Source of the DNA: Prostheceraeus crozeri
Taxonomy: Eukaryota > Platyhelminthes > Polycladida > Euryleptidae
Reading direction: 5' to 3'
Assembly (NCBI GenBank): GCA_907163375.1
Contig: CAJQUW010008697.1
Span: 56,753 to 120,752 of the forward strand
Length of the DNA stretch: 64,000 nucleotides
The notes under the pieces were generated by a model. The model was not told where the DNA came from. It made no database searches and was given only the letters and a program-made list of their open reading frames with translations. This document shows, in pieces, positions 3,001 to 52,285 of this stretch (within the stretch, counting starts at the first letter, position 1; each line of letters opens with the position of its first letter). The translations under genes and the position numbers were made by a program.

Positions 3001-5529
3001 TCTCCACTTCATCTATTTTCGCTTTAGTGATTGAAATTTTCTTTCATATTTATTTTCTACTTTGATTGATTTTCCGTGTTTTCTATTGAACAACAATTTT
3101 GCAGTGACTTTTCGTGATGCATAGCTTAGTATGGCATCTTAACAAAGGTGCAACCTTGACCTCGACATTGATTAAGCGTATTTTAACCGAGGTCGAGGTC
3201 TGACTGAACTGTAGTCAGATAATTACAGAAATTTTTCGGTATTCATAATTTTTTATTTGCACCATTGCTTTCATACGGATTTGCTCCTTTACGCCTACTT
3301 ATCGGGCACTTTGGACATAAGAATCTTTAACAAATGCATAAAATTTGAATGATTGTAGCAAATACTTGGAAACATAGACATACAGACTTTTCGTTCCTCC
3401 GCCAGGACGAGTTTTTGCATTGAACGAAACTGACCATGAGACTTCCACAGCCTGTTCTTCACTGCATGACTACTACGAAAGTGCGCGCCGAGTTCCTTAG
3501 ATCTGCAGAAAAGATCAAAGAAAAAGACATGTTGATTGAAGGAATATTGAAGTTTTCGACCAACATTTCAGTTTGGTGTGTTTACTCCGACAATGCGAGA
3601 TCTATTAGCTATAGCGCCATACTTTTTTTGGCAAGATATATTTTCAGGGCATGAAATCATGTAGCCAGACACCTTTACCTACAAAACTAAAAAACAGATT
3701 TGGATCCAGCAATCATCTTAGTAAGGGAAACATAAAATTTTGATAAAATATTAGCAAACCTTAAGCATCTAACCACATTCATACAAATATCGCACATCGA
3801 AAGTTGTTTTTAGCACTTGATACAACGTGATAGAAGACAAAATGAAGACATGTCATGCGTAAAATTATGTAGCTAGAGTTAATAGACGCATAGTCGCAGA
3901 AACACTTCAAACTGACATATTGGTCGAAAACTTCAATTTTCCTTCAATTGACATGTTTTTTCTTTGATCTTGTCTGTTGATTAAAACAGTTCGATAGAAC
4001 TCGGGAGGCGCGCAATTTCGTAGTAGTCATTGGGAGTGAAGCTTTTTGTGAAAGTCTCATCTAAGTTCTTGTTCCACACAGAAACTCGTCCTGGCGGCGA
4101 GTATAATATTTCTATGTTTCCATAGAATTTGTTGCAATCATATAAATTTTATATCTAAATTTGCATTCAAGATTCTTGTGTTCAATGTTAGGACCTGTTG
4201 AGATAGGACATGGGGCATCATGCCATCAGATAATTTCACTTTTTGTGACTCTTTATATTTACAAAATGGTTCCGTATCCGCTAACAATTGTCATTTTTTT
4301 ATTTGCTATTGTTAGCATGTAGCTTATTTTGTCTCCAAACATGAGCATAAAGCACATTATAATGTAGAAATTAACTAATTAAAACTTACATAGATTATGT
4401 TCAGATTTTCAGTGTACTGACGCAATGTGATTAATAGCATAATAAACACAACAGTTTTGTTTTCCTTTCATGCAAGTGCCCGGCACCAAAGTCAATCAAT
4501 ATTATACAACTTATTTTGGGGCCAACCTCGATTAAAATCTAATCACTGCATCCTTGCGCTCAGTAAGCAGCTCTCATTGATTGTGCAATGAATACCTGTA
4601 GTGTCCACGTCTACAATTTGTCTGCCTCATTGCTTAATTGATTCTTAGGAAGAGAATGTGTGTCCCTTAGCAGCACTATGAAAGTCCATACAATAAAACT
4701 TAAGAGTATCTCAAACTGATGTACCTAGTTGATGTCGTAAGAATTTGTGTCGCACACTGCTTTCAAGCATCTTTGACAGCACCTTGATTGAGATAGCATT
4801 TCGAATTTCAGTAGCATCTGACATTCACAGCTTGACCAATCTGTCCACATGATACTGAGGATTTAAGCCAGTATGATTATATATGTAGGATTATTATTTT
4901 ACATTAAATAACCGCGTTTTGAAATAGAGTGAAGTAGCCTGATTATCTGACTATTGATCGAGCAATTTACAAACATAAGTATGCAGGTATGAGAATCTTC
5001 CGGGTTTTCCGGGGTTTTGGTGCTGAAAAGACCATTCTCGTAATTCACCTAAATATGCAATAAAAAATTATACCCCCTCCGAAAGTTAGATTATTTAAAA
5101 AACGTCCATTTTTTCGCCCTAGCCAACTATTTTTCTTACATTAGATTATGCCAAATATCAATAAAAAGGTCACAAAAATTTCAAGACCAGACCCCCTTCG
5201 CAAACTTGCTCGCTCGTTCCGGGTTTTTTATTTGCCCTCAATCTCATGCCTGGTATGATACACTAGCACCAAATGTTCCGGCATTGATTGTCATAAGCCG
5301 ACGCAGAAAATACGATGTTGATTATGGAAGCAGTTACAGTATCACAATCATTTTCCCACTGGGATGCTCTAGGTATGTCTGCTTAGTACAGTACGTAGAT
5401 ATCGTAGTTATTTCAGGTCCAATAGCTGATTTGTGCTGAGGGTATTTTCATGTTGAAGCAATCTCCATGCTTCATAATAATGAGTGTATTTGCGATACAA
5501 TTTTATTGTGTAACTTCTATTTATTTCAG
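1..5529. other. Non-coding host DNA upstream of first visible RNF exon
   Basis: No open frame here resembles a known protein, and I see no exon with good splice signals. The upstream first exon of the RNF115/126-like gene (start codon and first half of the N-terminal zinc finger) should lie 5' of 5530, but I could not find it; it may be outside the window. The only structure I see is the foldback at 3313-4195. Confidence 0.5.
3313..4195. repeat. Foldback (long inverted repeat, MITE-like)
   Basis: Positions about 3313-3622 reappear as an imperfect reverse complement at about 3865-4195, with a spacer of about 240 bases. The arms share the stretch around the CCAGGACGAGTTT motif, the GGAAACATAGA motif and the TTGAAGTTTTCGACCAA motif. 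There is no transposase frame. A non-autonomous foldback element is the simplest reading. Terminal duplications were not identified. Confidence 0.65.
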
Positions 5530-32505: not shown

Positions 32506-35500
32506 CAGATGGTGTCATCCACTTGGTAAGCCGGTCAAAGTATACTATGACTTTGAAAGATCGTAGAGCAAGAGAGAAACTTGGCGAAATATGCAGAAAT
32601 TGTTGATATTTGATCATATTTTGCTAAGAAAGAATGATCAGGTCTAGAGTTGCTCTTTGATTTTAGTGAAAGAAGCCTAGAACCTGACTGTAGATGATAT
32701 TGGCATGGTGTCATCCGGTTGGTAAGCCGGTCAAAGTATACTATGACTCTGAAAGATCATAGAGCAAGAGAGAAACTTAGCGAAATATGCAGAAATTGTT
32801 GATATTTGATCATATTTTGCTAAGAAAGAATGATCAGGTCTAGAGTTGCTCTTTGATTTTAGTGAAAGCAGCCTAGAACCTGACTGTAAATGATATTGGC
32901 ATGGTGTCATCCGGTTGGTAAGCCGGTCAAAGTATACTATGACTCTGAAAGATCGTAGAGCAAGAGAGAAACTTGGCGAAATATGCAGAAATTGTTGATA
33001 TTTGATCATATTTTGCTAAGAAAGAATGATCAGGTCAGGAGTTGCTCTTTGATTTTAGTGAAAGAAGCCTAGAACCTGACTGTAAATGATATTGGCATGG
33101 TGTCATCCGGTTGGTAAGCCGGTCAAAGTATACTATGACTCTGAAAGATCGTAGAGCAAGAGAGAAACTTGGCGAAATATGCAGAAATTGTTGATATTTG
33201 ATCATATTTTGCTAAGAAAGAATGATCAGGTCAGGAGTTGCTCTTTGATTTTAGTGAAAGAAGCCTAGAACCTGACTGTAAATGATATTGGCATGGTGTC
33301 ATCCACTTGGTAAGCCGGTCAAAGTATACTATGACTCTGAAAGATCGTAGAGCAAGAGAGAAACTTGGCGAAATATGCAGAAATTGTTGATATTTGATCA
33401 TATTTTGCTAAGAAAGAATGATCAGGTCAGGAGTTGCTCTTTGATTTTAGTGAAAGCAGCATAGAACCTGACTGTAAATGATATTGGCATGGTGTCATCC
33501 GGTTGGTAAGCCGGTCAAAGTATACTATGACTCTGAAAGATCGTAGAGCAAGAGAGAAACTTGGCGAAATATGCAGAAATTGTTGATATTTGATCATATT
33601 TTGCTAAGAAAGAATGATCAGGTCAGGAGTTGTTCTTTGATTTTAGTGAAAGAAGCCTAGAACCTGACTGTAGATGATATTGGCATGGTGTCATCCGGTT
33701 GGTAAGCCGGTCAAAGTATACTATGACTCTGAAAGATCATAGAGCAAGAGAGAAACTTAGCGAAATATGCAGAAATTGTTGATATTTGATCATATTTTGC
33801 TAAGAAAGAATGATCAGGTCAGGAGTTGCTCTTTGATTTTAGTGAAAGAAGCCTAGAACCTGACTGTAAATGATATTGGCATGGTGTCATCCACTTGGTA
33901 AGCCGGTCAAAGTATACTATGACTCTGAAAGATCGTAGAGCAAGAGAGAAACTTGGCGAAATATGCAGAAATTGTTGATATTTGATCATATTTTGCTAAG
34001 AAAGAATGATCAGGTCTAGAGTTGCTCTTTGATTTTAGTGAAAGAAGCCTAGAACCTGACTGTAAATGATATTGGCATGGTGTCATCCGGTTGGTAAGCC
34101 GGTCAAAGTATACTATGACTCTGAAAGATCGTAGAGCAAGAGAGAAACTTGGCGAAATATGCAGAAATTGTTGATATTTGATCATATTTTGCTAAGAAAG
34201 AATGATCAGGTCAGGAGTTGTTCTTTGATTTTAGTGAAAAAAGCATAGAACCTGACTGTAGATGATATTGGCATGGTGTCATCCACTTGGTAAGCCGGTC
34301 AAAGTATACTATGACTCTGAAAGATCATAGAGCAAGAGAGAAACTTAGCGAAATATGCAGAAATTGTTGATATTTGATCATATTTTGCTAAGAATGATCA
34401 GGAGTTGTTCTTTGATTTTAGTGAAAGAAGCCTAGAACCTGACTGTAAATGATATTGGCATGGTGTCATCCGGTTGGTAAGCCGGTCAAAGTATACTATG
34501 ACTCTGAAAGATCATAGAGCAAGAGAGAAACTTAGCGAAATATGCAGAAATTGTTGAAATTTTGATCATATTTGCTAAGAAAGAATGATCAGGTCAGGAG
34601 TTGCTCTTTGATTTTAGTGAAAGCAGCATTGAACCTGACTGTAAATGATATTGGCATGGTGTCATCCGGTTGGTAAGCCGGTCAAAGTATACTATGACTC
34701 TGAAAGATCGTAGAGCAAGAGAGAAACTTGGCGAAATATGCAGAAATTGTTGATATTTGATCATATTTTGCTAAGAAAGAATGATCAGGTCAGGAGTTGC
34801 TCTTTGATTTTAGTGAAAGCAGCCTAGAACCTGACTGTAAATGATATTGGCATGGTGTCATCCGGTTGGTAAGCCGGTCAAAGTATATTATGACTCTGAA
34901 AGATCGTAGAGCAAGAGAGAAACTTGGCGAAATATGCAGAAATTGTTGATATTTGATCATATTTTGCTAAGAAAGAATGATCAGGTCTAGAGTTGCTCTT
35001 TGATTTTAGTGAAAGCAGCCTAGAACCTGACTGTAAATGATATTGGCATGGTGTCATCCACTTGGTAAGCCGGTCAAAGTATACTATGACTCTGAAAGAT
35101 CGTAGAGCAAGAGAGAAACTTGGCGAAATATGCAGAAATTGTTGATATTTGATCATATTTTGCTAAGAAAGAATGATCAGGTCTAGAGTTGCTCTTTGAT
35201 TTTAGTGAAAGAAGCCTAGAACCTGACTGTAAATGATATTGGCATGGTGTCATCCACTTGGTAAGCCGGTCAAAGTATACTATGACTCTGAAAGATCGTA
35301 GAGCAAGAGAGAAACTTAGCGAAATATGCAGAAATTGTTGATATTTGATCATATTTTGCTAAGAAAGAATGATCAGGTCAGGAGTTGTTCTTTGATTTTA
35401 GTGAAAGAAGCCTAGAACCTGACTGTAGATGATATTGGCATGGTGTCATCCGGTTGGTAAGCCGGTCAAAGTATACTATGACTCTGAAAGATCATAGAGC

Positions 35501-35540
35501 AAGAGAGAAACTTAGCGAAATATGCAGAAATTGTTGATCT
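32506..35540. repeat. 196-bp satellite array, about 15.5 copies
   Basis: TGGCATGGTGTCATCC recurs at 32701, 32897, 33093, 33289 and so on every 196 bases to 35540. A partial first unit starts near 32506. One unit near 34380 has a short deletion, and variants fall into two sets (CCGGTTGG or CCACTTGG; CAGGTCAGG or CAGGTCTAG) that alternate irregularly, so units have been exchanged. Each unit contains a GATCATATTTTGCTAAGAAAGAATGATC-type partial palindrome. Minus-strand frames of 92 codons are by-products of the repeat. The array ends about 90 bases before the first CACTA transposase exon. Confidence 0.95.
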
Positions 35541-35631
35541 CTGCTTGGCGAAAAAACTTGGCGCTTTTCGTAACTCAAACAGCCCCCTGGCTGCCGCTCT
35601 AATAGTTTTTTGACAATAATTATCTTTTCAG

Positions 35632-35712
35632 AATGGCGTGTTCCAGGGTGTACATTGATGCTTTGGATGAATCACTTCAAGTGGCCGACGGTGACGGCGA
35701 GTATTCTACTGA
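35632..35712 (+). CDS. CACTA transposase, first exon
   Basis: The exon is bounded by a TATCTTTTCAG acceptor and a GTAAGT donor, with an ATG at 35633. It reads MACSRVYIDALDESLQV then an acidic DGDGE stretch, and ends in phase 2, which fits the exon at 35923. The acceptor implies a 5' leader exon further left, perhaps before or within the satellite array. Confidence 0.5.
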
Positions 35713-43415: not shown

Positions 43416-43969
43416 GTAAGCGACGGTCGTCGCTCTGAGCTCCCGATATCGGGTGTTTCAAAGGACTCTATCTTTTGAAGTAGGCAAGCTATCTTCTTAC
43501 TTCAAAGTTTGTATGATAGAGTTTGATAGTGTCTTTACTACTGATAAAATTTTTTAAAAGTAGTATGAGTAGTAAAATGCGGAATTTTTTTAAAAATTCT
43601 TAATTTTCAGTTTTTTCAAAGTTTTAACATATAGACTAAGGTTTTCAAGTATCCTGAGTTCAAATCTGCTATCAGATTTGAAATTTAACTAAGTCTAAGG
43701 CAGCTTTGAGGGGTTAGATCCCAGCTACTGATCACTACCTTTGACTCGGCGTTCCTGTTACCACTTCGGGGCAGTGACAATGATGTCTTCAGCTGTAAAG
43801 AGCGGGTATCGGGGAAGATCTCTCACTTCCCTAGTGATCAGTACAAGGCCTTCGGGCTGTCGACGGGATCGAGTGCCACTCACTACACTCTTTAGGAATA
43901 TGACTGTACTACATGATTCCAAACTTATACAAATTTCATTATCTTACAGTTAACGATAAAATCTCAGGC

Positions 43970-45124
43970 ATGGCAAATGACAAGAACCGAAAATTCCACA
44001 TCAAAATGTGTGTGTGCGGTCGAATAAATGGCAGTGCGGACGCCAAGGCTCATGTCAAGAAGGCGGGCACCGGCCACATGATTATCTTGAATAGGGTTGC
44101 GTGCGTGAAGTGTAGAGTGCTGAAGGGTGATAAGGATGAGGCGCGTTTCTACAGAGTGCATGCTGACTGTAGTGGTGGTTTAGTGACTGATTTGAGATTA
44201 ACGCAGTTGATTGTGGAAGAGAGGGAGCGAATGTTGGCGATCGAGCGAGAGGGTACGGCTGAGAATGTTGTTGAGAATGATGAGTTGGCGAGAGCGGTTG
44301 CGTCGTTGGAGGGTGAGATTGAGCGAAAGAGAGTGCTTGAGAGTGATGATGAGGATGATGTGGATTTAGATAGGGAGCGTGTGAGGAAGTTGAGCTCTTC
44401 GTCGTCGGAGGTGTCAAACATTGTCATCACCGACCCCCCGAAGAGCTCATCTTCCCCAAAAGTGAAGACTGGTGGGATTCGTGTGCAGTCGGCGAGGTGG
44501 TTGAAGGATGAAGAGAAGAGGCATGTTTCGCAGCAGATGGCGCATGATTTGTTGGTTAATAAGTATGAGAGTTTGAAGAAGTTGAAGGATGAAGTCGTGA
44601 AGGAGTTGGATGAGTTGAAAAAGAAGGAACTGAAGTCGAAGGAGGTAGCGGATGAAAATATTAGAATGAGGCGTAGTGTGACTGATTTGAAGAATAAGAC
44701 GCGAGAGTTGGAAGAGAAGAATGATGACTGTGAGAAGAGGGCGAGTGCTGCGGAGAGAAGAATGAGAGATGCAGAAGCGAAGTTTGAGGAGATGATGAAG
44801 GAGATGAGTGTGTTGAGAGCGAGGAATGTTGAGTTGGAGAGGACTGTGGCTCGGCGGGGTGATGAGAGGCAGGCGTATGAGAAGTTGGAGCGCATGAGGG
44901 ATGAGTGGATTCGTGTGAATGAGGATCGTTTGTTTGAATTTCACATCCCTATTCGGGATAATCATTTGGCCGGCGAAGTACTCGTAAACCAGAATTTAGA
45001 CGAATCCATCCTATGCTACAATGGTCATCCGACGAAAAAATGCCTCCACGCCAGCCTACGAATGCGCGGCCATCTACACAAATTTTCAATTCGGAAGCGC
45101 GCGAGACTGCCAAAGGATGACTAA
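43970..45124 (+). CDS. Zinc-binding coiled-coil protein of the Polinton
   Basis: Start chosen at the ATG at 43970 just after two splice acceptors; 384 codons. Residues about 14-70 hold Cys and His in a zinc-like pattern (MCVCGR, later VACVKC and HADC). An acidic and Ser-rich stretch follows (ESDDEDDVDLD, SSSSSEVS), then a long heptad-like coiled coil from about residue 185 to 350 rich in Lys, Glu and Arg. From about residue 350 the composition changes. The function is not recognised. The TATA box, 5' UTR intron and a 3' UTR intron (45129-45188, with TTCTAATAC branch site) show RNA polymerase II expression. After splicing, a histone-type stem-loop follows about 56 nt past the stop. Several large minus-strand frames here are shadows. 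Confidence 0.7.
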   Translation: MANDKNRKFHIKMCVCGRINGSADAKAHVKKAGTGHMIILNRVACVKCRVLKGDKDEARFYRVHADCSGGLVTDLRLTQLIVEERERMLAIEREGTAENVVENDELARAVASLEGEIERKRVLESDDEDDVDLDRERVRKLSSSSSEVSNIVITDPPKSSSSPKVKTGGIRVQSARWLKDEEKRHVSQQMAHDLLVNKYESLKKLKDEVVKELDELKKKELKSKEVADENIRMRRSVTDLKNKTRELEEKNDDCEKRASAAERRMRDAEAKFEEMMKEMSVLRARNVELERTVARRGDERQAYEKLERMRDEWIRVNEDRLFEFHIPIRDNHLAGEVLVNQNLDESILCYNGHPTKKCLHASLRMRGHLHKFSIRKRARLPKDD

Positions 45125-45240
45125 CTTGGTAAGTGAAAAGTAAATAAGATAGTATATCCTATTCTAATACATATCATTTTCATTGCAGATCTTTGCCCGC
45201 CTTCACCACCCCATCAATTCACTCCCGAGAACGAACCATC

Positions 45241-45271
45241 GGCTCTCTTAAGGGCCACCATGGGGCAAGAC
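45241..45271 (+). terminator. Histone-type 3' stem-loop, copy 1
   Basis: GGCTCTCTTAAGGGCC (45241-45256) forms a six-pair stem with a four-base CTTA loop. It is followed at once by ACCA and, five bases later, by CAAGACATGA. This is the layout of replication-dependent histone 3' ends: stem-loop, ACCA/ACCCA cleavage flank, then a CAAGA-type downstream element. It lies downstream of the coiled-coil gene after its 3' UTR intron. Confidence 0.7.
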
Positions 45272-45381
45272 ATGATAGAACCTCCACGCGGTTTGCCCTG
45301 GGCAGTCTTCGGACTGGCGAATACTATCATTAAGTTGAATCTGCTATCAGTCAACTTGAACGTTGCGTCGCGTTAGAGGGG

Positions 45382-45389
45382 TATATAAA
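45382..45389 (+). promoter_or_regulatory. TATA box of first 88-residue gene
   Basis: TATATAAA 32 bases before the ATG at 45421. CATTTCATTTCATTTCAATC between them is a pyrimidine-rich leader. Confidence 0.75.
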
Positions 45390-45420
45390 CCACTGCCTCT
45401 CATTTCATTTCATTTCAATC

Positions 45421-45687
45421 ATGCAGACGCCGAACAGTCAAGTCAGCTCTCCTCGCGGACCGCAGTTAAGGCCGCGAAATTTATTTGAGGAATTTGTCAG
45501 GCTAGAGGAGCAAGACAGAGTTTTTAATAATCTTGCTCGGATTGGCAATCCGATGACAGCAACTGCTGTCAATCCAACAGAATGGCGCTACATTCCACTT
45601 TTTAGTCACGTGCCAATTAGCGTGGAAGTCGACAGTGCTACCAAAGAGAGAGTCAAAGACTCTCTCAGCAGAATTGGTAGGGTGTAA
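45421..45687 (+). CDS. Small early-type protein, copy 1 (88 aa)
   Basis: The ATG at 45421 lies 32 bases downstream of a TATA box, and the frame stops at 45687. The protein has a Ser/Pro/Arg-rich N terminus (residues 1-20) and a mixed alpha/beta-like rest with NLFEEFVRLEEQDR and ATKERVKDSLSRIG. No family is recognised. The gene, its TATA box and the histone-like 3' element form a 476-bp cassette that is repeated at once. Its short leader and lack of an intron or AATAAA resemble histone genes, although the protein is not a histone. Confidence 0.75.
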   Translation: MQTPNSQVSSPRGPQLRPRNLFEEFVRLEEQDRVFNNLARIGNPMTATAVNPTEWRYIPLFSHVPISVEVDSATKERVKDSLSRIGRV

Positions 45688-45716
45688 GATGACGTTACTC
45701 CCGAGAATGAACCATC

Positions 45717-45750
45717 GGCTCTCTTAAGGGCCACCATGGGGCAAGACATG
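45717..45750 (+). terminator. Histone-type 3' stem-loop, copy 2
   Basis: The same 16-base stem-loop, ACCA and CAAGACATGA as copy 1, starting 30 bases after the stop codon of the first 88-residue gene. Confidence 0.75.
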
Positions 45751-45857
45751 ATAGAACCTCCTCGCGGTTTGCCCTGGGCAGTCTTCGGACTGGCGAATAC
45801 TATCATTAAGTTGAATCTGCTATCAGTCAACTTGAACGTTGCGTCGCGTTAGAGGGG

Positions 45858-45865
45858 TATATAAA
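45858..45865 (+). promoter_or_regulatory. TATA box of second 88-residue gene
   Basis: TATATAAA 32 bases before the ATG at 45897, with the same flanks as copy 1. Confidence 0.75.
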
Positions 45866-45896
45866 CCACTACCTCTCATTTCATTTCATTTCAATC

Positions 45897-46163
45897 ATGC
45901 GGACGCCGAACAGTCAAGTCAGCTCTCCTCGCGGACCGCAGTTAAGGCCGCGAAATTTATTTGAGGAATTTGTCAGACTAGAGGAGCAAGACAGAGTCCA
46001 CAATAATCTTGCTCGGATTGGCAATCCGATGACAGCAACTGTTGTCAATCCAACAGAATGGCGCTACATTTCACTTTTCAGCCACGTGCCAATTAGCGTG
46101 GAAGTCGACACTGCTACCAAAGACAGAGTCAAAGACTCTCTCAGCAGAATTGGTAGGCTGTAA
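45897..46163 (+). CDS. Small early-type protein, copy 2 (88 aa)
   Basis: A tandem duplicate of the gene at 45421, 476 bases downstream. The products differ at only a few residues (for example VHNN for VFNN, TVVNP for TAVNP, IGRL for IGRV). Most changes are conservative, so both copies appear to have been kept under selection. The function is unknown. Confidence 0.75.
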   Translation: MRTPNSQVSSPRGPQLRPRNLFEEFVRLEEQDRVHNNLARIGNPMTATVVNPTEWRYISLFSHVPISVEVDTATKDRVKDSLSRIGRL

Positions 46164-46192
46164 GATGACGTTACTCCCGTGAACGAACCACC

Positions 46193-46228
46193 GGCTCTCT
46201 TAAGGGCCACCATGGGGCAAGATTTGAT
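46193..46228 (+). terminator. Histone-type 3' stem-loop, copy 3
   Basis: GGCTCTCTTAAGGGCC then ACCA, then CAAGATTTGA, starting 30 bases after the stop at 46163. The stem and flank are unchanged, and the downstream element has small changes. Confidence 0.75.
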
Positions 46229-46383
46229 AGAACCTCCTCGCGATTTGCCCTGGGCAGTCTTCGGACTGGCGAATACTATCATTAAGTTGAATCTGCTATC
46301 AGTCAACTTGAACATTATGCAGTCGATTGCTATCCCTGAAGCATTCTGATTCGCTGTTGAGCAATTCATTGTTGAAAACCCCA

Positions 46384-46389
46384 TATAAG
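46384..46389 (+). promoter_or_regulatory. TATA-like box of 84-residue gene
   Basis: TATAAG (CCATATAAGCC) about 41 bases before the ATG at 46430. Confidence 0.5.
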
Positions 46390-46429
46390 CCAGAAGATTG
46401 TAGCGCTTCTCATTCAATTTGAAGTCACG

Positions 46430-46684
46430 ATGGAAGCGACATCTGCCGACAACATTCCCGTCTTCATCGATGAAGACAACACCATTCCCGAGTTCGTCAT
46501 CCTCGACGAGTGGGATGAGGAGGATGAGAAGAAGGGGAAGATCAAGAGGATCGTTTGGACGGATGAGGTGTGGACTCCTAAAACCACCCGCATCCGAAAG
46601 GTGCCAGATGCACCAGTACGACCTCGGCGGTATAGGGTCTATGATAACCTAACCGTCATACCCATTGACTATTCCAGCCAATAG
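46430..46684 (+). CDS. Small acidic protein (84 aa)
   Basis: ATG at 46430 after a TATA-like box; stop at 46684. The first half is strongly acidic (FIDEDNTIPEFVILDEWDEE), the second basic (TRIRKVPDAPVRPRRYRVYD). No family is recognised. It is another member of the row of short intronless units that end with the histone-type stem-loop, here 31 bases after the stop. Confidence 0.65.
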   Translation: MEATSADNIPVFIDEDNTIPEFVILDEWDEEDEKKGKIKRIVWTDEVWTPKTTRIRKVPDAPVRPRRYRVYDNLTVIPIDYSSQ

Positions 46685-46715
46685 TCAAATTCACACCCCC
46701 CGAGAACGAACCATC

Positions 46716-46750
46716 GGCTCTTAAGGGCCACCATGGGGCAAGACATGATA
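46716..46750 (+). terminator. Histone-type 3' stem-loop, copy 4 (shorter stem)
   Basis: GGCTCTTAAGGGCC lacks two bases of the other copies and still folds as a five-pair stem with a four-base TTAA loop. ACCA and CAAGACATGA follow as in copies 1 and 2. Confidence 0.65.
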
Positions 46751-46839
46751 GAACCTCCTCGCGGTTTGCCCTGGGCAGTCTTCGGACTGGCGAATACTAT
46801 CATTAAGTTGAATCTGCTATCAGTCAACTTGAACGTTGC

Positions 46840-47638
46840 AAATGAAGTTCGGTGTAATACTTCCTTTCGACGGGCGTTCCTGTAAAGGGCGGCGGTGAAA
46901 CCCGTAGCTATGTATACCGCAAGGGACATTCGGCAATGATCAATCTTGTTAAACCTCTCTGCGTCATGTTTGCAAGTGATTGCCTCTGTCTCAACGTAGT
47001 ATGCATTCGCGCCAGGGCGACATTTAGCCAACTGTCGAAGGTTGCCTAAAACTTTCCATTGCATACGTTATGAGAACCATGAGTTCTACCTGTCTCTATC
47101 AATGAGACGAATTGATGAATGGAATGAAATGGGAGGACACTCACGCGCCACACGCAACATAACACACTTCCCTCTTCCGTAGTCTAACAAGCTCTTTACA
47201 CATGGATCGCAGTCGATTGCTATCCCTGTATCAGAAGTGTAAGCTATCTTAATTTTATTTGACACTATTTCATCTATCATCATCATCGTCCATATGAAAT
47301 GTTTTAAGATTTACAAGTTAGACTAAGCGTGCTACTATTTCCAAATGAAAAAGTATACATGGTTAAATCATCCACTTAAGCCCATCCGTAGTCTAACAGG
47401 CTCTTTACACATGGATCGCAGTCGATTGCTATCCCTGTATCAGAAGTGTAAGCTATCTTAATTTATTTGACACTATTTCATCTACCATCATCGTCCATAT
47501 GAAATGTTTTAAGATTTACAAGTTAGACTAAGCGTGCTACTATTTCCAAATGAGAATGTATACATGGTTAAATCATCCACTGAAGCCCCATTCAAGTAAG
47601 TCAGTATGAAAGCAAAGATAATACGAAATAAAAATTTA
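46840..47638. repeat. Non-coding spacer with two direct repeats
   Basis: About 47178-47388 is repeated at 47386-47595 with few differences (CGTAGTCTAAC..GCTCTTTACACATGG). Both copies contain GCAGTCGATTGCTATCCCTG, which also occurs at 46319 upstream of the 84-residue gene. No gene is supported here. Confidence 0.75.
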
Positions 47639-48034
47639 TTATGGCATGTATTTCAAAAGGTCTTCATCGTCAATATCGTCCCAGAGTCTGGCTTCACATA
47701 GATAACAAAAACAGTTCAGTTGCTTTAATCGTTCTTCCACTGCGAGCCTCACTTTGTCAATATACTCCCACTCCTCCATAGTTCGTGGCTGGGAGTTAGG
47801 GGTGTACCACTCCCATAATTGGTGGAGGAATTTGGTGCTGGTGATCTCCATCACATCGTCAGTATCGTACTGGAGATACTTCCACCTCACGCCTGTTAAG
47901 TCGGGACACTCCTTCTCACATACACTCTCTTCGTTGTCCGCTGGTAATAACACCTTCTCTACCTTCGTTGGAGCGTTTGGTGTTGAGGATGGAGAAGAGA
48001 ATTTTGTGTTTGGTGTTGTCGGAGGGCTTGTCAT
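47639..48034 (-). CDS. Unknown Polinton protein (131 aa)
   Basis: ATG at 48034, stop overlapping an AATAAA-like signal at 47639. The N terminus is Ser/Thr/Pro-rich (residues 1-25), followed by acidic and Trp/Tyr-rich sequence with GVRWKYLQYDTDDVMEI and a C-terminal CFCYLC cluster that could bind metal. It is divergent to POLB and shares its upstream region, which has a central TATATAT and two CCAAT boxes. The function is unknown. Confidence 0.6.
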   Translation of the reverse strand: MTSPPTTPNTKFSSPSSTPNAPTKVEKVLLPADNEESVCEKECPDLTGVRWKYLQYDTDDVMEITSTKFLHQLWEWYTPNSQPRTMEEWEYIDKVRLAVEERLKQLNCFCYLCEARLWDDIDDEDLLKYMP

Positions 48035-48311: not shown

Positions 48312-51095
48312 ATGGTAAGTTGAAAATTTCTTCACTCATCTCCCTCAAACGTGTGGCTAATAGCATCTTCCTCAATTTCAGGTATCAACTTCATCACCAA
48401 CACCCTCCCTTCTCGAGGAAAGTTTAGAGTTGTTGAGTCAAGGTAGGTTGTAACAATACACTGAGACTTGAACAGAGATGAAAGAATGATTTCTCTTTCA
48501 GGTGATGTGAGTTCCAGCTCAGGACTCTCGCGACAAGGCGACGAGTGGGAATGTGCCGACTGCGGACATATGTTTACAAGGAAGCACAGTCTCCTTCGAC
48601 ACATCAAACAACGTGTGTGTCAACGCAAAGCGGCGTCAATCTCCGGAGGTGAAGTTGATTCTGACGATGACATCTCCTTTCCTTGCGATTTGTGCCCTCT
48701 TTCTTTTGATAGTCACTTTCAGCGATCTTCGCACAGACTTCAACACACGCATGCAAATGATCACTACACCAACGGTACCTCTACCATCTCCCTCATTAAT
48801 GTTTCACATAATAATTTAGTACGCGACTACTGCATGGAGTCCAATACTCAAATAGTAGATTTTCCAGAGTGGCTCCTTCAAAATTCTAACATTATCGAAG
48901 CGCTCTTCAACAATTTAGACAATTTTAGAATGAAGGCGCTCATCTACCTTAAACTAAAATATATTAAGATAGATTTTCAAACGGGTCAAGTGACGGAGAG
49001 AATACAGTTTCATGTTCCTTCCTCTTCCGCAACCGAAGTTGTAGACTGCGAGTCTTGGCTAAATTTTCACATTCAATGTTTAAAATCAAATGTAGATAAA
49101 TTCAATCAACGCGACAGCGCTCTCATTTTTGATGGTGTGGACTCAGCCATATTCAAAATTTCCCTATTAGAAAGTCATACAGCTCGAGGCACATTTAAAC
49201 TACCAAAAACGTTGTATAATAAGAAAGCTGTCATCAATGTCGATTGTAAATCACAGTGTTTCAAATATGCAGTCCTATCCATCCTTCACTATAATGATAT
49301 CAACGCGAATCGAAATCATACCTATAGCTATAGACAGTGGGAGGATGAACTAGACTTTGAAGGTTGTGATAGTGACAACATGAAAATCAAAGATGTAGAA
49401 ACGTTCGAAAAACATAATCAGATTAAAATTGTCGTTCACGTGTGGGAGAAGGGGTTGAAGGGTGCCCGCTATAATTCACGTTCAACTTGTTATGAACGTG
49501 TAGTCAACCTCTTATTAGTAAAACAAGATGATAGCGAGGAATGGCACTACTGTGGTATTCCCAAAATCTCTGGCTTGTACACTCACTTGGGGCACTCTAA
49601 AAGAGGTGAACATTTTGTATGCGACCGCTGCATCCGCTCCTTTTGGAGTAAAGATAAATTTGAAGCTCACTATGAATGGTGCAAGCGAGGTAAATTACAA
49701 ATGGAACGCATGCCCAAAGATAAAATATTTTCACATAGGGATAATGGTGACGAATTAAGTCCCCTGCGTGTCATTTACGCAGACATAGAATGCTACATTG
49801 ATGATATCATCCACAAGCCAGCAGCCATATCTTGCTATGAAGTATGGCATGACCACTTTAGGAATAGACAAAACAAAATGTATACTTGGCAAGGTGAAGA
49901 TTGCATTTCAAAATTTCTAGAATATCTCGATAAAGCTGCTAAATTTCAACAATCATATGATTCCCAATTGCAGCGTAAGTCACTACATATGTCAGATGAA
50001 GACAAACAAAAATTTGAAAGTTGCACATCGTGCCCTAAATGTCATAAAACGTTTGATGACGATAAAATTAAGAAAGTGCGTGATCATGATCACATCACTG
50101 GTAAATTTAGAAACGCACTCTGCTCCAAATGTAACTTTTCACTTAGGTTGAGACGTCGTGTACTACCCGTCATTTTTCATGACTTTGAGGGCTATGACAG
50201 TCATATGCTCATAAAAGGAGGGTTGAGCCAGATGAAATCGTGGCAGTTTAATGCAATAGCACAAACGAGAGAAAAATTCATGGCAATGACAGCAAAAGTA
50301 CCAGCAGATAAAACTAAAGAAAATAAGACAGTCTTCTTCGAAATAAAATTTTTAGATTCATTTCAATTCATGTCAGCGTCACTAGCTTCTCTCGTTCGAA
50401 ATCTCAAGTTTCTTCCCCATAGTCAAACTTTGAAGAAACACTATCCAAACTTAACGGATGAAATAATCACTCGCAAAGGAGTCTTTCCTTATGCGTATTT
50501 TAGATCAATGTCTAAACTAAATGAAACAACCCTTCCTTCCATTGACAAATTCCAAAACGATTTGACGGGTGAAGATTGTCCAGTAGAGGACTATGAACAT
50601 GCTCAAGAGGCATGGTTAAAATTTGAATGTAAAACGTTTGGCGATTATATGATCGCTTACTTAGAATTAGATGTCATTTTGCTGGCTGATGTCTTTCAGG
50701 AATTTCGACGAGTGGCATTAGAAGAAGACAAATTAGATCCTGTCCACTTTGTCAGTCTACCAGCCATGTCCTTTAAATCAGCCTTTAAAATGACTGGTGA
50801 GACCATTCATCTCTTACAAGACCCGGAGATGTATAATATATTTGAGCGCGGAATACGCGGTGGTCTCACATTTGTAAATAAACATCATATAAAATCTGAA
50901 ACAGTAGGTGATGATCATATCCACCTAAAGTACTATGACCAAAATAATTTATATGGCAGTTCACTGTCTAAACCACAACCTCATTCCGAGTTCAGTTGGT
51001 TAAATCAAGATGAGCTTGAGTATTACTCCAACCCTTCAAACATACTGAAGATTCCAGATGAAGGTGATTGGGGATATTATTTTGAAGTGGATTGA
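48312..51095 (+). CDS. POLB: DNA polymerase B (protein-primed type), N-terminal and exonuclease part
   Basis: Exons: 48312-48314 (only the ATG, before GTAAGT), 48382-48442 (after TTTCAG, before GTAGGT), and 48502 onward (after TTTCAG); all join in frame. The protein starts MVSTSSPTPSLLEES. Near residues 40-100 are two C2H2-like fingers (CADCGHMFTRKHSLLRH; CDLCPLSFDSHFQRSSH). Near 450 is Exo I (YADIEC), near 530-565 an endonuclease VII-like zinc loop (CPKC, DHDHITG, CSKCN), near 575 Exo II (FHDFEGYDSH, with Asp where Asn is usual), near 740 Exo III (YLELDVILLAD), and near 830 polymerase motif A (YYDQNNLYGSSL). The enzyme replicates the element. The frame stops at 51095, one base out of step with the rest. 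Confidence 0.9.
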
Positions 51096-52285
51096 TTTAT
51101 CCAAATAGCATTAAAAATAAAACTGCTGATTTCCCACTCGCACCTGAATCTGGTGAAGTGACTGAAGATATGTTTTCACCATTCATGTCACAATTTCATA
51201 ATAACTTAACAGAGTGTGGACAGCCAAGGTACAAACCATGCCGCAAACTTTTACTCACCCAATATGATAAGAAAAATTATCTCGTACACTTCTGCATACT
51301 AAAATTCTATTTAGAAATGGGCATGCTTCTAAAGTCAGTTCACCGCATTATCAAATTTAGACAGAAAGCCTTCCTCAAACCCTACATAGATAGTAACAGT
51401 CAAAAACGTGCACTCGCCCAAAATAATTTTGAAAAGGATTTTTATAAATATAAGAATAACAGTCTTTTCGGAAAGACCATGGAGGATGTTAGAAAACGTA
51501 TGAACTACAAACTAGTCGTTGATGAACAAAAATATCACAAATTGACCTCATCACCTCTTTTCATTGATAGAGACATCATCGATGAGGATCTTGTAGGTGT
51601 TAAAATGATAAAATCAGAAGTTGAGTTGTGCAAACCCATCTATATTGGGCAAGCCGTTTTAGATTATTCCAAGCTTGAAATGTATCAACTCTTCTACAAA
51701 ATATTAAAATCATGCCCTCCCGTAAAAGAGGTTCGCTTGCTGGGTGGTGATACAGATAGTTTCTTTTTAGGAATTACCACTCAAAAAGATTTAAATTTTA
51801 ATGAAGTAGGCAAGTCATTAGAAAAATATTTCGACACATCTAACTACAATCCAACTCATCCACTCTATTCCATACAGAATAAAGCCAAACTTGGTTGTTT
51901 TAAGGATGAAACAGCAGGAAAGGAAATAGATGAAATGATTCTCCTCCGTCCTAAAATGTATTCCATGAAATTAAAAGAATGTGCAGATAGTATTAAGCGT
52001 GCTAAAGGTATATCAAAATCCATTGTTCATAAAATGAAACATCGCTCCTATAAGAAGGCCTATAAAAATAAAAATATAACGTTTGTCAATATGACAATCT
52101 TAAAATCTCAAGTTCATACTGTGAAAACGTACACGTTCAAGAAACGAGCGCTTTCAGCATGGGAGGATAAGAGGTGTTGGATAGGACATAACACATCTCT
52201 TCCACATGGACATCCTGACACAAACATACCACCACCCAAAAGAATAAAACTCACGCTACCACATTCAGGAGATGTATTGACATAA
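51092..52285 (+). CDS. POLB: DNA polymerase B, C-terminal palm part in shifted frame
   Basis: This continues POLB in the -1 frame: LIYPNSIKNKTADFPLAPES follows directly on the EVD at the end of the first part. Motif B is KNNSLFGKTMED (Lys and Tyr/Phe-Gly site) at about 51450 and motif C is GGDTDSFF (catalytic Asp pair) at about 51750. The C terminus is basic with a KKR stretch. No canonical slippery heptamer or strong pseudoknot was seen at 51088-51095, so a one-base deletion or assembly error is likelier than programmed shifting. The gene converges on the minus-strand structural genes and ends before AATAAA at 52444. Confidence 0.88.
   Translation: MIYPNSIKNKTADFPLAPESGEVTEDMFSPFMSQFHNNLTECGQPRYKPCRKLLLTQYDKKNYLVHFCILKFYLEMGMLLKSVHRIIKFRQKAFLKPYIDSNSQKRALAQNNFEKDFYKYKNNSLFGKTMEDVRKRMNYKLVVDEQKYHKLTSSPLFIDRDIIDEDLVGVKMIKSEVELCKPIYIGQAVLDYSKLEMYQLFYKILKSCPPVKEVRLLGGDTDSFFLGITTQKDLNFNEVGKSLEKYFDTSNYNPTHPLYSIQNKAKLGCFKDETAGKEIDEMILLRPKMYSMKLKECADSIKRAKGISKSIVHKMKHRSYKKAYKNKNITFVNMTILKSQVHTVKTYTFKKRALSAWEDKRCWIGHNTSLPHGHPDTNIPPPKRIKLTLPHSGDVLT

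Follow-up and report, generated by a model that had tools for sequence, protein, structure and literature searches.

The DNA examined here is a 64-kb window (64,000 nucleotides, nt) of contig CAJQUW010008697.1 from the polyclad flatworm Prostheceraeus crozeri, in which lies a Polinton-like element whose right end falls beyond the window. Four consecutive plus-strand genes occupy the left part of the element, with stop codons at 45124, 45687, 46163 and 46684 (positions are those of the window, on the plus strand unless stated). Behind each stands one copy of a direct repeat of ~144 nt, the four copies being spaced 476, 476 and 521 bases apart. Every copy joins a stem-loop like that at the end of replication-dependent histone mRNAs to a fold like the hepatitis delta virus (HDV) ribozyme. 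We propose that the ribozyme makes tail-less mRNA ends that carry a histone-type hairpin, probably for the protein SLBP. For this chain as a whole, read from sequence, we hold belief and doubt to be about equal.

Delimited by repeat search and alignment, copy 1 of the module (45221..45364), made up of the stem-loop, the HDV-like ribozyme and a downstream hairpin, ends gene 1. Copy 2 (45697..45840) follows the first 88-amino-acid (aa) gene, copy 3 (46173..46316) the second 88-aa gene, and copy 4 (46694..46837) an 84-aa gene. The flanking DNA diverges on the upstream side of copy 1, on the downstream side of copy 3 and to either side of copy 4, and the module therefore behaves as a portable gene end. 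Downstream of copy 4, no plus-strand ATG open reading frame (ORF) of at least 80 aa occurs until the polymerase at 48486, and the ORF at 47639-48034 that lies between them is on the minus strand. A promoter role is thus unlikely for copy 4, whereas a gene-end role fits. An earlier note on this DNA had counted four stem-loop sites as four. The repeat search and alignment reduce them to a single duplicated module, which rules out four independent stem-loops and leaves one observation.

Directly behind the stem-loop, all four modules carry a 69-nt HDV-like fold. It is intact in copy 1 (45262..45330; predicted cut 45261/45262; catalytic C 45318), copy 2 (45738..45806; predicted cut 45737/45738; catalytic C 45794) and copy 4 (46735..46803; predicted cut 46734/46735; catalytic C 46791), and damaged, probably impaired, in copy 3 (46214..46282; would-be cut 46213/46214). 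With G1 as the base following ACCAU, P1 pairs GGGGCAA with UUGCCCU in all four copies (7 base pairs, bp, with a G1·U wobble) and leads into a J1/2 of GAC. The P2 pseudoknot joins AUGAUAG on the J1/2 side to CUAUCAU at the 3' end, through seven Watson-Crick pairs in copies 1, 2 and 4 and 6 bp in copy 3, which has lost the outer pair. P3 (ACC/GGU) is sound in three of the four copies; a C·A mismatch leaves two of its three pairs in copy 3. L3 reads UCCUCGC (UCCACGC in copy 1), J1.1/4 is GGG, with the P1.1 guanines judged by position only, and P4 is CAGUC/GACUG. J4/2, GCGAAUA, holds the catalytic C in all four copies (GGCGAATA). The core formed by L3 UCCUCGC, J1.1/4 GGG and J4/2 UGGCGAAU matches the HDV consensus, and the roles we give to these parts are those they have in the HDV ribozyme.

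Profile and descriptor searches agree with this assignment. A permissive Rfam scan matched RF02682 in copies 1, 2 and 4 (26.8, 26.5 and 26.5 bits) and RF00094 in copies 1 to 4 (25.9, 27.5, 21.8 and 27.5 bits). When a 161-nt stretch containing copy 2 was compared with 4227 Rfam families, only the two HDV families (26.5 and 27.5 bits) and, adjoining them, Histone3 (18.1 bits) reached E<=1. P2 is unpaired in the Rfam structure lines, and its seven pairs therefore count as additional evidence. With P2 included, a strict descriptor matched copies 1, 2 and 4, failed on copy 3, and had no further match on the two strands of the window. It found nothing in 687 dinucleotide-shuffled windows (one strand each) or in 15.7 Mb of local shuffles. 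This descriptor replaced a first, looser one that gave 0.875 matches per shuffled window strand (40 shuffles) and was not discriminating. Folded without the pseudoknot, copy 2 forms the stem-loop, P1 and P4, along with another hairpin behind the ribozyme. Judged by this evidence, the fold is very probably a genuine HDV-like ribozyme, and we regard the identification as strong.

The stem-loop itself is, as the earlier note reported, an exact 16-mer, GGCTCTCTTAAGGGCC, at 45241..45256, 45717..45732 and 46193..46208, and each of these three copies also matches the Rfam family and the consensus. Copies 1-3 have the 6-bp GGYYYU/ARRRCC stem, the 4-nt loop and the ACCA flank, and they agree with the RF00032 consensus at 21 of 26 positions, from the CCA before the stem through the ACCA after it. 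Among 20 million simulated hairpins with a 6-bp stem and 4-nt loop, the mean agreement was 7.0/26 and P(>=21) was 9e-7 under the assumed composition. Allowing up to 3 mismatches, GGCTCTCTTAAGGGCC found an average of 0.14 matches per shuffle and at most 2 (100 shuffles). The consensus GGYYYTNNTNARRRCC plus ACC matched three times on the plus strand of the window, never on the minus strand, and never in 400 shuffled windows (both strands). The free energy of the hairpin is ordinary (25 of 300 shuffles were equally stable); what is remarkable about it is its sequence, not its stability. The claimed likeness to histone ends is well supported, both by the 21 consensus positions and by the presence of Histone3 among the sole Rfam matches at E<=1. 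The genes so ended do not appear to be histone genes, again as claimed: a Pfam scan of the gene 1, second 88-aa and 84-aa proteins found no family, histone domains included. The distance between stop codon and stem, given as 30-31 bases, was about right, measuring 29, 29 and 31.

Copy 4 carries a shortened stem-loop at 46716..46729, which reads GGCTCTTAAGGGCC with ACCAT behind it. It does still fold, as a 5-bp stem after the loss of 2 nt, while its identity to the histone consensus drops by six positions. The earlier note took this fourth copy as a sign that shape matters, a view that relatives of the module do not bear out. A protein search with the reverse reading frame through copy 4 gave three candidates, of which two metagenome proteins, P0241 and P0242 (from contigs known from proteins alone), span the module. 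Both have the downstream flank of copy 4, and their frame (...MVALKRADGSF) implies a full-length stem-loop. The 2-nt loss is therefore probably private to copy 4 and no evidence of a selected shape, and compensatory shortening is ruled out because the relatives retain the full form. Within the ribozyme, P0242 departs from the window at two residues; by the smallest base substitutions, these changes would fall in the P4 loop and J1.1/4, outside the helices. As close relatives, the two proteins contribute little independent depth.

The ribozyme is predicted to cut 5 nt past the stem-loop, at GGCUCUCUUAAGGGCC-ACCAU/GGGG. According to PMC7026596, the U7 small nuclear ribonucleoprotein (snRNP) cuts histone pre-mRNA 4-5 nt after its stem-loop and leaves no poly(A). 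The predicted ribozyme cut falls where a histone pre-mRNA would be cut by U7 snRNP, and its product would resemble a mature histone mRNA end save for the terminal U and the end chemistry. The reading first put forward was processing by U7 snRNP and SLBP as in histones, with any ribozyme likeness accidental or dead. It draws on the likeness of three copies to Histone3 (18 bits) and on a CAAGA near the usual place of purine-rich elements. That CAAGA is the only candidate for a purine-rich U7-pairing element, and it falls within the ribozyme, as the end of P1 (GGGGCAA) and the start of J1/2. A U7-type downstream element seems unlikely, its letters belonging to these parts. The Histone3 profile fits poorly beyond ACCA, and the strict ribozyme descriptor is absent from all shuffles. 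Because its downstream element belongs to the ribozyme, U7 processing now appears very unlikely. The claim that the histone 3'-processing machinery makes these ends is unsupported, the site of the downstream element being filled by a self-cleaving ribozyme fold predicted to cut 5 nt past the stem.

In the mechanism we propose, RNA polymerase would read through the ~144-nt cassette that ends each of the four neighbouring Polinton genes, and the HDV-like ribozyme would fold and cleave the RNA of which it is part at the ACCAU/GGGG junction. This would leave the upstream mRNA tail-less, its last bases GGCUCUCUUAAGGGCC-ACCAU and its terminus a 2',3'-cyclic phosphate, as HDV cleavage chemistry usually produces. 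Host SLBP would then bind the histone-like end and substitute for the tail in export, stability and translation. The DNA directly displays the module with its ribozyme fold, its histone-like stem-loop and their 5-nt spacing, together with a block free of plus-strand AATAAA/ATTAAA; from these we infer self-cleavage in cells, SLBP binding and a benefit to expression. The place of the ribozyme behind four stop codons suggests that it forms mRNA 3' ends, which we consider likely. Action of the hairpin through SLBP is the least certain step, a proposal founded on the end copying that of a mature replication-dependent histone mRNA, which SLBP can bind, and here we find the scales evenly poised. Confidence in the whole chain cannot exceed that in its weakest step.

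No AATAAA or ATTAAA occurs on the plus strand from 44024 to 47626. Elsewhere in the element, the 181-aa gene, the 131-aa gene and the protease, unlike the module-ended genes, each have a poly(A) signal that overlaps the stop codon (convergent pair 56703/56730; 131-aa gene 47639). A ribozyme in a 3' untranslated region (UTR) cuts away whatever poly(A) tail is added beyond it, and mammalian 3'-UTR hammerheads lower expression by such tail removal. The Polinton ribozyme might act in the same sense, cutting within the 3' UTR to remove a tail added further downstream and lower expression, the stem-loop being incidental. The histone-like end lies exactly at the cut, however, and no plus-strand AATAAA/ATTAAA stands within ~790 nt of copy 4 to be cut off, and such down-regulation seems to us highly improbable.

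The main alternative accepts that the ribozyme makes the 3' end and treats the hairpin as generic, shielding the end from exonucleases or insulating the ribozyme, with its histone likeness due to chance. HDV-like sites in the IMG/VR collection bear on this. A pattern scan gave 31 loci (33 sites), in four of which (6 sites) a best-fit search found P1, P2, P3 and P4 together, with looser limits (P1 of 6 bp in L014, P2 of 4 bp in L032); the remaining 27 loci were set aside, including L012 and L027, which had P1 and P3 with P2 missing. The HDV-like sites, on unrelated viral contigs, share the layout and differ in the letters of P1 and P2. A hairpin ends 2-5 nt before the cut at all eight Rfam-scored sites inspected (two in L010, one in L032, five in L033), a count that is partly redundant since some L010 and L033 sites are near-identical copies, and a hairpin likewise precedes the cut in the tRNA-rich contig L014. 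"Hairpin, few bases, HDV-like cut" thus seems to be a general means of completing the RNA that lies upstream. These nine hairpins are unlike histone ends, matching the consensus at 5-10 of 26 positions in the cut register and 7-11 with shifts of up to 3. Against a generic hairpin, the 21/26 identity of the Polinton stem-loop, ACCA included, would be expected about once in a million simulated hairpins of the assumed composition, and we judge this alternative unlikely, though the foremost of its kind.

The hosts of these IMG/VR contigs are probably prokaryotic, judging from starts that resemble ribosome-binding sites and from the collection itself. Contig L033 (IMGVR_UViG_3300009854_000325) has plus-strand HDV-like sites at 2849, 3351, 4882, 5396 and 5919, all below the Rfam gathering score and all five with a hairpin before the cut. 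It also has many small ORFs and a plus-strand twister-sister ribozyme at 4519-4587, above the gathering score. Its ribozyme set looks like a systematic RNA-processing scheme. The HDV-like ribozyme of L014, at ~4041-4123 on the minus strand, has a long upstream hairpin, a weak CPEB3_ribozyme match (19.7 bits) and core letters near those of the Polinton ribozyme.

Searches for further copies of the module returned little. An exact stem-loop search of IMG/VR gave 0 matches, and the phage collection gave no match. Thirteen IMG/VR loci matched a pattern for histone-like stem-loops, and in none of them did a loose descriptor find an HDV fold behind it. Polymerase and capsid locus searches of viral contigs yielded none in two and one distant locus (L004) in another, and a polymerase alignment search of genome contigs yielded three distant loci. 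L001-L004 have no histone stem-loop, and a loose descriptor produced 3 AT-rich, chance-like matches there. More distant Polinton DNA carrying the module was not found in the collections scanned.

Several observations weigh against a working, ribozyme-made histone-type end. Neither Rfam gathering score for HDV ribozymes is reached (26.8 vs 44 and 27.5 vs 50 bits), a shortfall shared by the IMG/VR examples L010, L032 and L033, and Histone3 scores 18.2 bits at best, in three copies, against a gathering score of 34. With the pseudoknot outside the model, the copy 2 fold shows no excess stability over shuffles (z -0.58; 51 of the 200 shuffles folded as stably). The stem-loop of copy 4 retains 15 of 26 consensus positions (ungapped). 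The four copies descend from one another, so the family offers no independent covariation, and the broken P3 pair of ribozyme copy 3 together with the shortened stem-loop of copy 4 means that the element may be decaying. The polymerase frame also changes near 51090, so that this copy of the element is probably partly decayed. Absence of AATAAA/ATTAAA within 150 bases of the stop is shared by 10 of the 16 other tabulated genes, and hence gives mild support only. Because unhistone-like hairpins precede other HDV-like cuts, the position of the Polinton hairpin alone is no proof of a histone role.

The predicted cut also coincides with a possible start codon. Its bases form a textbook Kozak start, GCCACCATGG, at 45260, 45736, 46212 and 46733, with a frame of 38-50 codons in all four copies. 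The stretch might code for a peptide (MGQDMIEPPRGLPWAVFGLANTIIKLNLLSVNLN...) of 38-50 aa, the ATG and frame being open in every module. The C-terminus of the frame varies among copies, copy 3 has the replacements M to L, G to D and V to I, the two changes deduced for P0242 likewise alter amino acids, and the ribozyme fold is left unexplained. We reject the coding peptide on the amino acid changes and differing C-termini and give it next to no credence; the Kozak-like start is probably a coincidence of ACCA, U and GGGG.

Compared with known HDV-like ribozymes (RF00094 and RF02682; R2, L1Tc and theta), the Polinton ribozyme has the same double pseudoknot, G1·U wobble, L3 and J4/2 core, catalytic C and cut 5' of G1. 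Retroelement ribozymes free the element RNA from co-transcripts, R2 doing so at its 5' junction, and theta ribozymes, according to PMC10879173, are phage-encoded and cut at tRNA 3' ends. In the Polinton, by contrast, the useful product would be the upstream mRNA, and four copies close adjacent genes. With the replication-dependent histone mRNA end (RF00032) the module shares a 6-bp stem, a 4-nt loop, GGYYYU/ARRRCC, ACCA and, as predicted, an end 5 nt past the stem. It differs in having no histone domain in the proteins tested, no convincing downstream element, a ribozyme that would cut in cis and a cyclic phosphate as the expected end.

A man-made parallel exists in C3P3, a reporter system with a self-cleaving HDV ribozyme at the end of its standard plasmid. 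In human cells a histone stem-loop alone in the 3' UTR was roughly equivalent to A40 (PMC10908868), and the HDV ribozyme was presumably kept in that stem-loop construct; the Polinton case would be natural. In the literature searched, which left most subscription papers outside, we found no report of an HDV-like ribozyme in a Polinton or of a natural ribozyme-made histone end. The terms "self-cleaving ribozyme" and "polinton" both occur in PMC6361761 and PMC8969392.

Eukaryotic mRNA 3' ends are known to be made by protein or ribonucleoprotein machines. If the proposal is true, a 69-nt ribozyme producing tail-less, SLBP-ready mRNAs would be another route to such ends, letting the element make tail-less messages without the cutting machine of the cell and express its genes independently of poly(A) signals. 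As a small 3'-end cassette of natural origin it would parallel the constructs that engineers have made, and it would hint at a way in which S phase might favour the expression of some genes. More tentatively, with confidence a little short of even, we envisage a natural gene-end cassette of an animal virus-like transposon in which the ribozyme replaces U7 snRNP, the cyclic-phosphate end might resist the 3' exonuclease that removes histone mRNA after S phase, and a wider class of viral mRNAs cut by a ribozyme and ended by a hairpin may exist in prokaryotic viruses too.

Of the four genes that the module ends, gene 1 (43970..45124) encodes a Glu/Lys-rich protein that is coiled-coil by look only. 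Read by eye, it has candidate introns at 43416-43949 and, in the 3' UTR, 45129-45188. The 88-aa genes lie at 45421..45687, with TATATAAA at 45382, and at 45897..46163, with TATATAAA at 45858; the 84-aa gene spans 46430..46684. The gene 1 protein resembles neither the 88-aa nor the 84-aa protein (E 2.9 and 6.2), and these two have at most a weak likeness (22 residues, E 0.018, in a single comparison). No LxCxE motif was found in the five proteins checked. The conserved hairpin directly 3' of the ribozyme (45332..45357 in copy 1; AAGTTGA...TCAACTT), seen in the copy 2 fold and in invariant alignment columns, is identical in all four modules. Its apex, CTGCTATCAG, is also the apex of a hairpin at 43650-43690, which lies within the candidate intron of the gene 1 5' UTR.

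The wider element appears to be a Polinton/Maverick (adintovirus-like) element, its polymerase, capsid and other genes being assigned through relatives and likeness. A Pfam scan identified an rve integrase and a chromodomain. For the polymerase ORF, the only Pfam match is Endonuclease_7, and several relatives carry PF03175. The capsid candidate has 264 relatives, with the name "capsid" on none among the 120 listed. The capsid, protease and ATPase candidates had no match in the Pfam scan; we take them to be such from their likeness to known proteins. The polymerase frame shift lies at ~51086-51095, where the ORF at 48486-51095 gives way to a stop-to-stop ORF at 51086-52285 in another frame. Left of the element, at 34000-35662 of the window, is a tandem repeat of eight 196-nt copies, which begins at the edge of the searched stretch and is perhaps longer.

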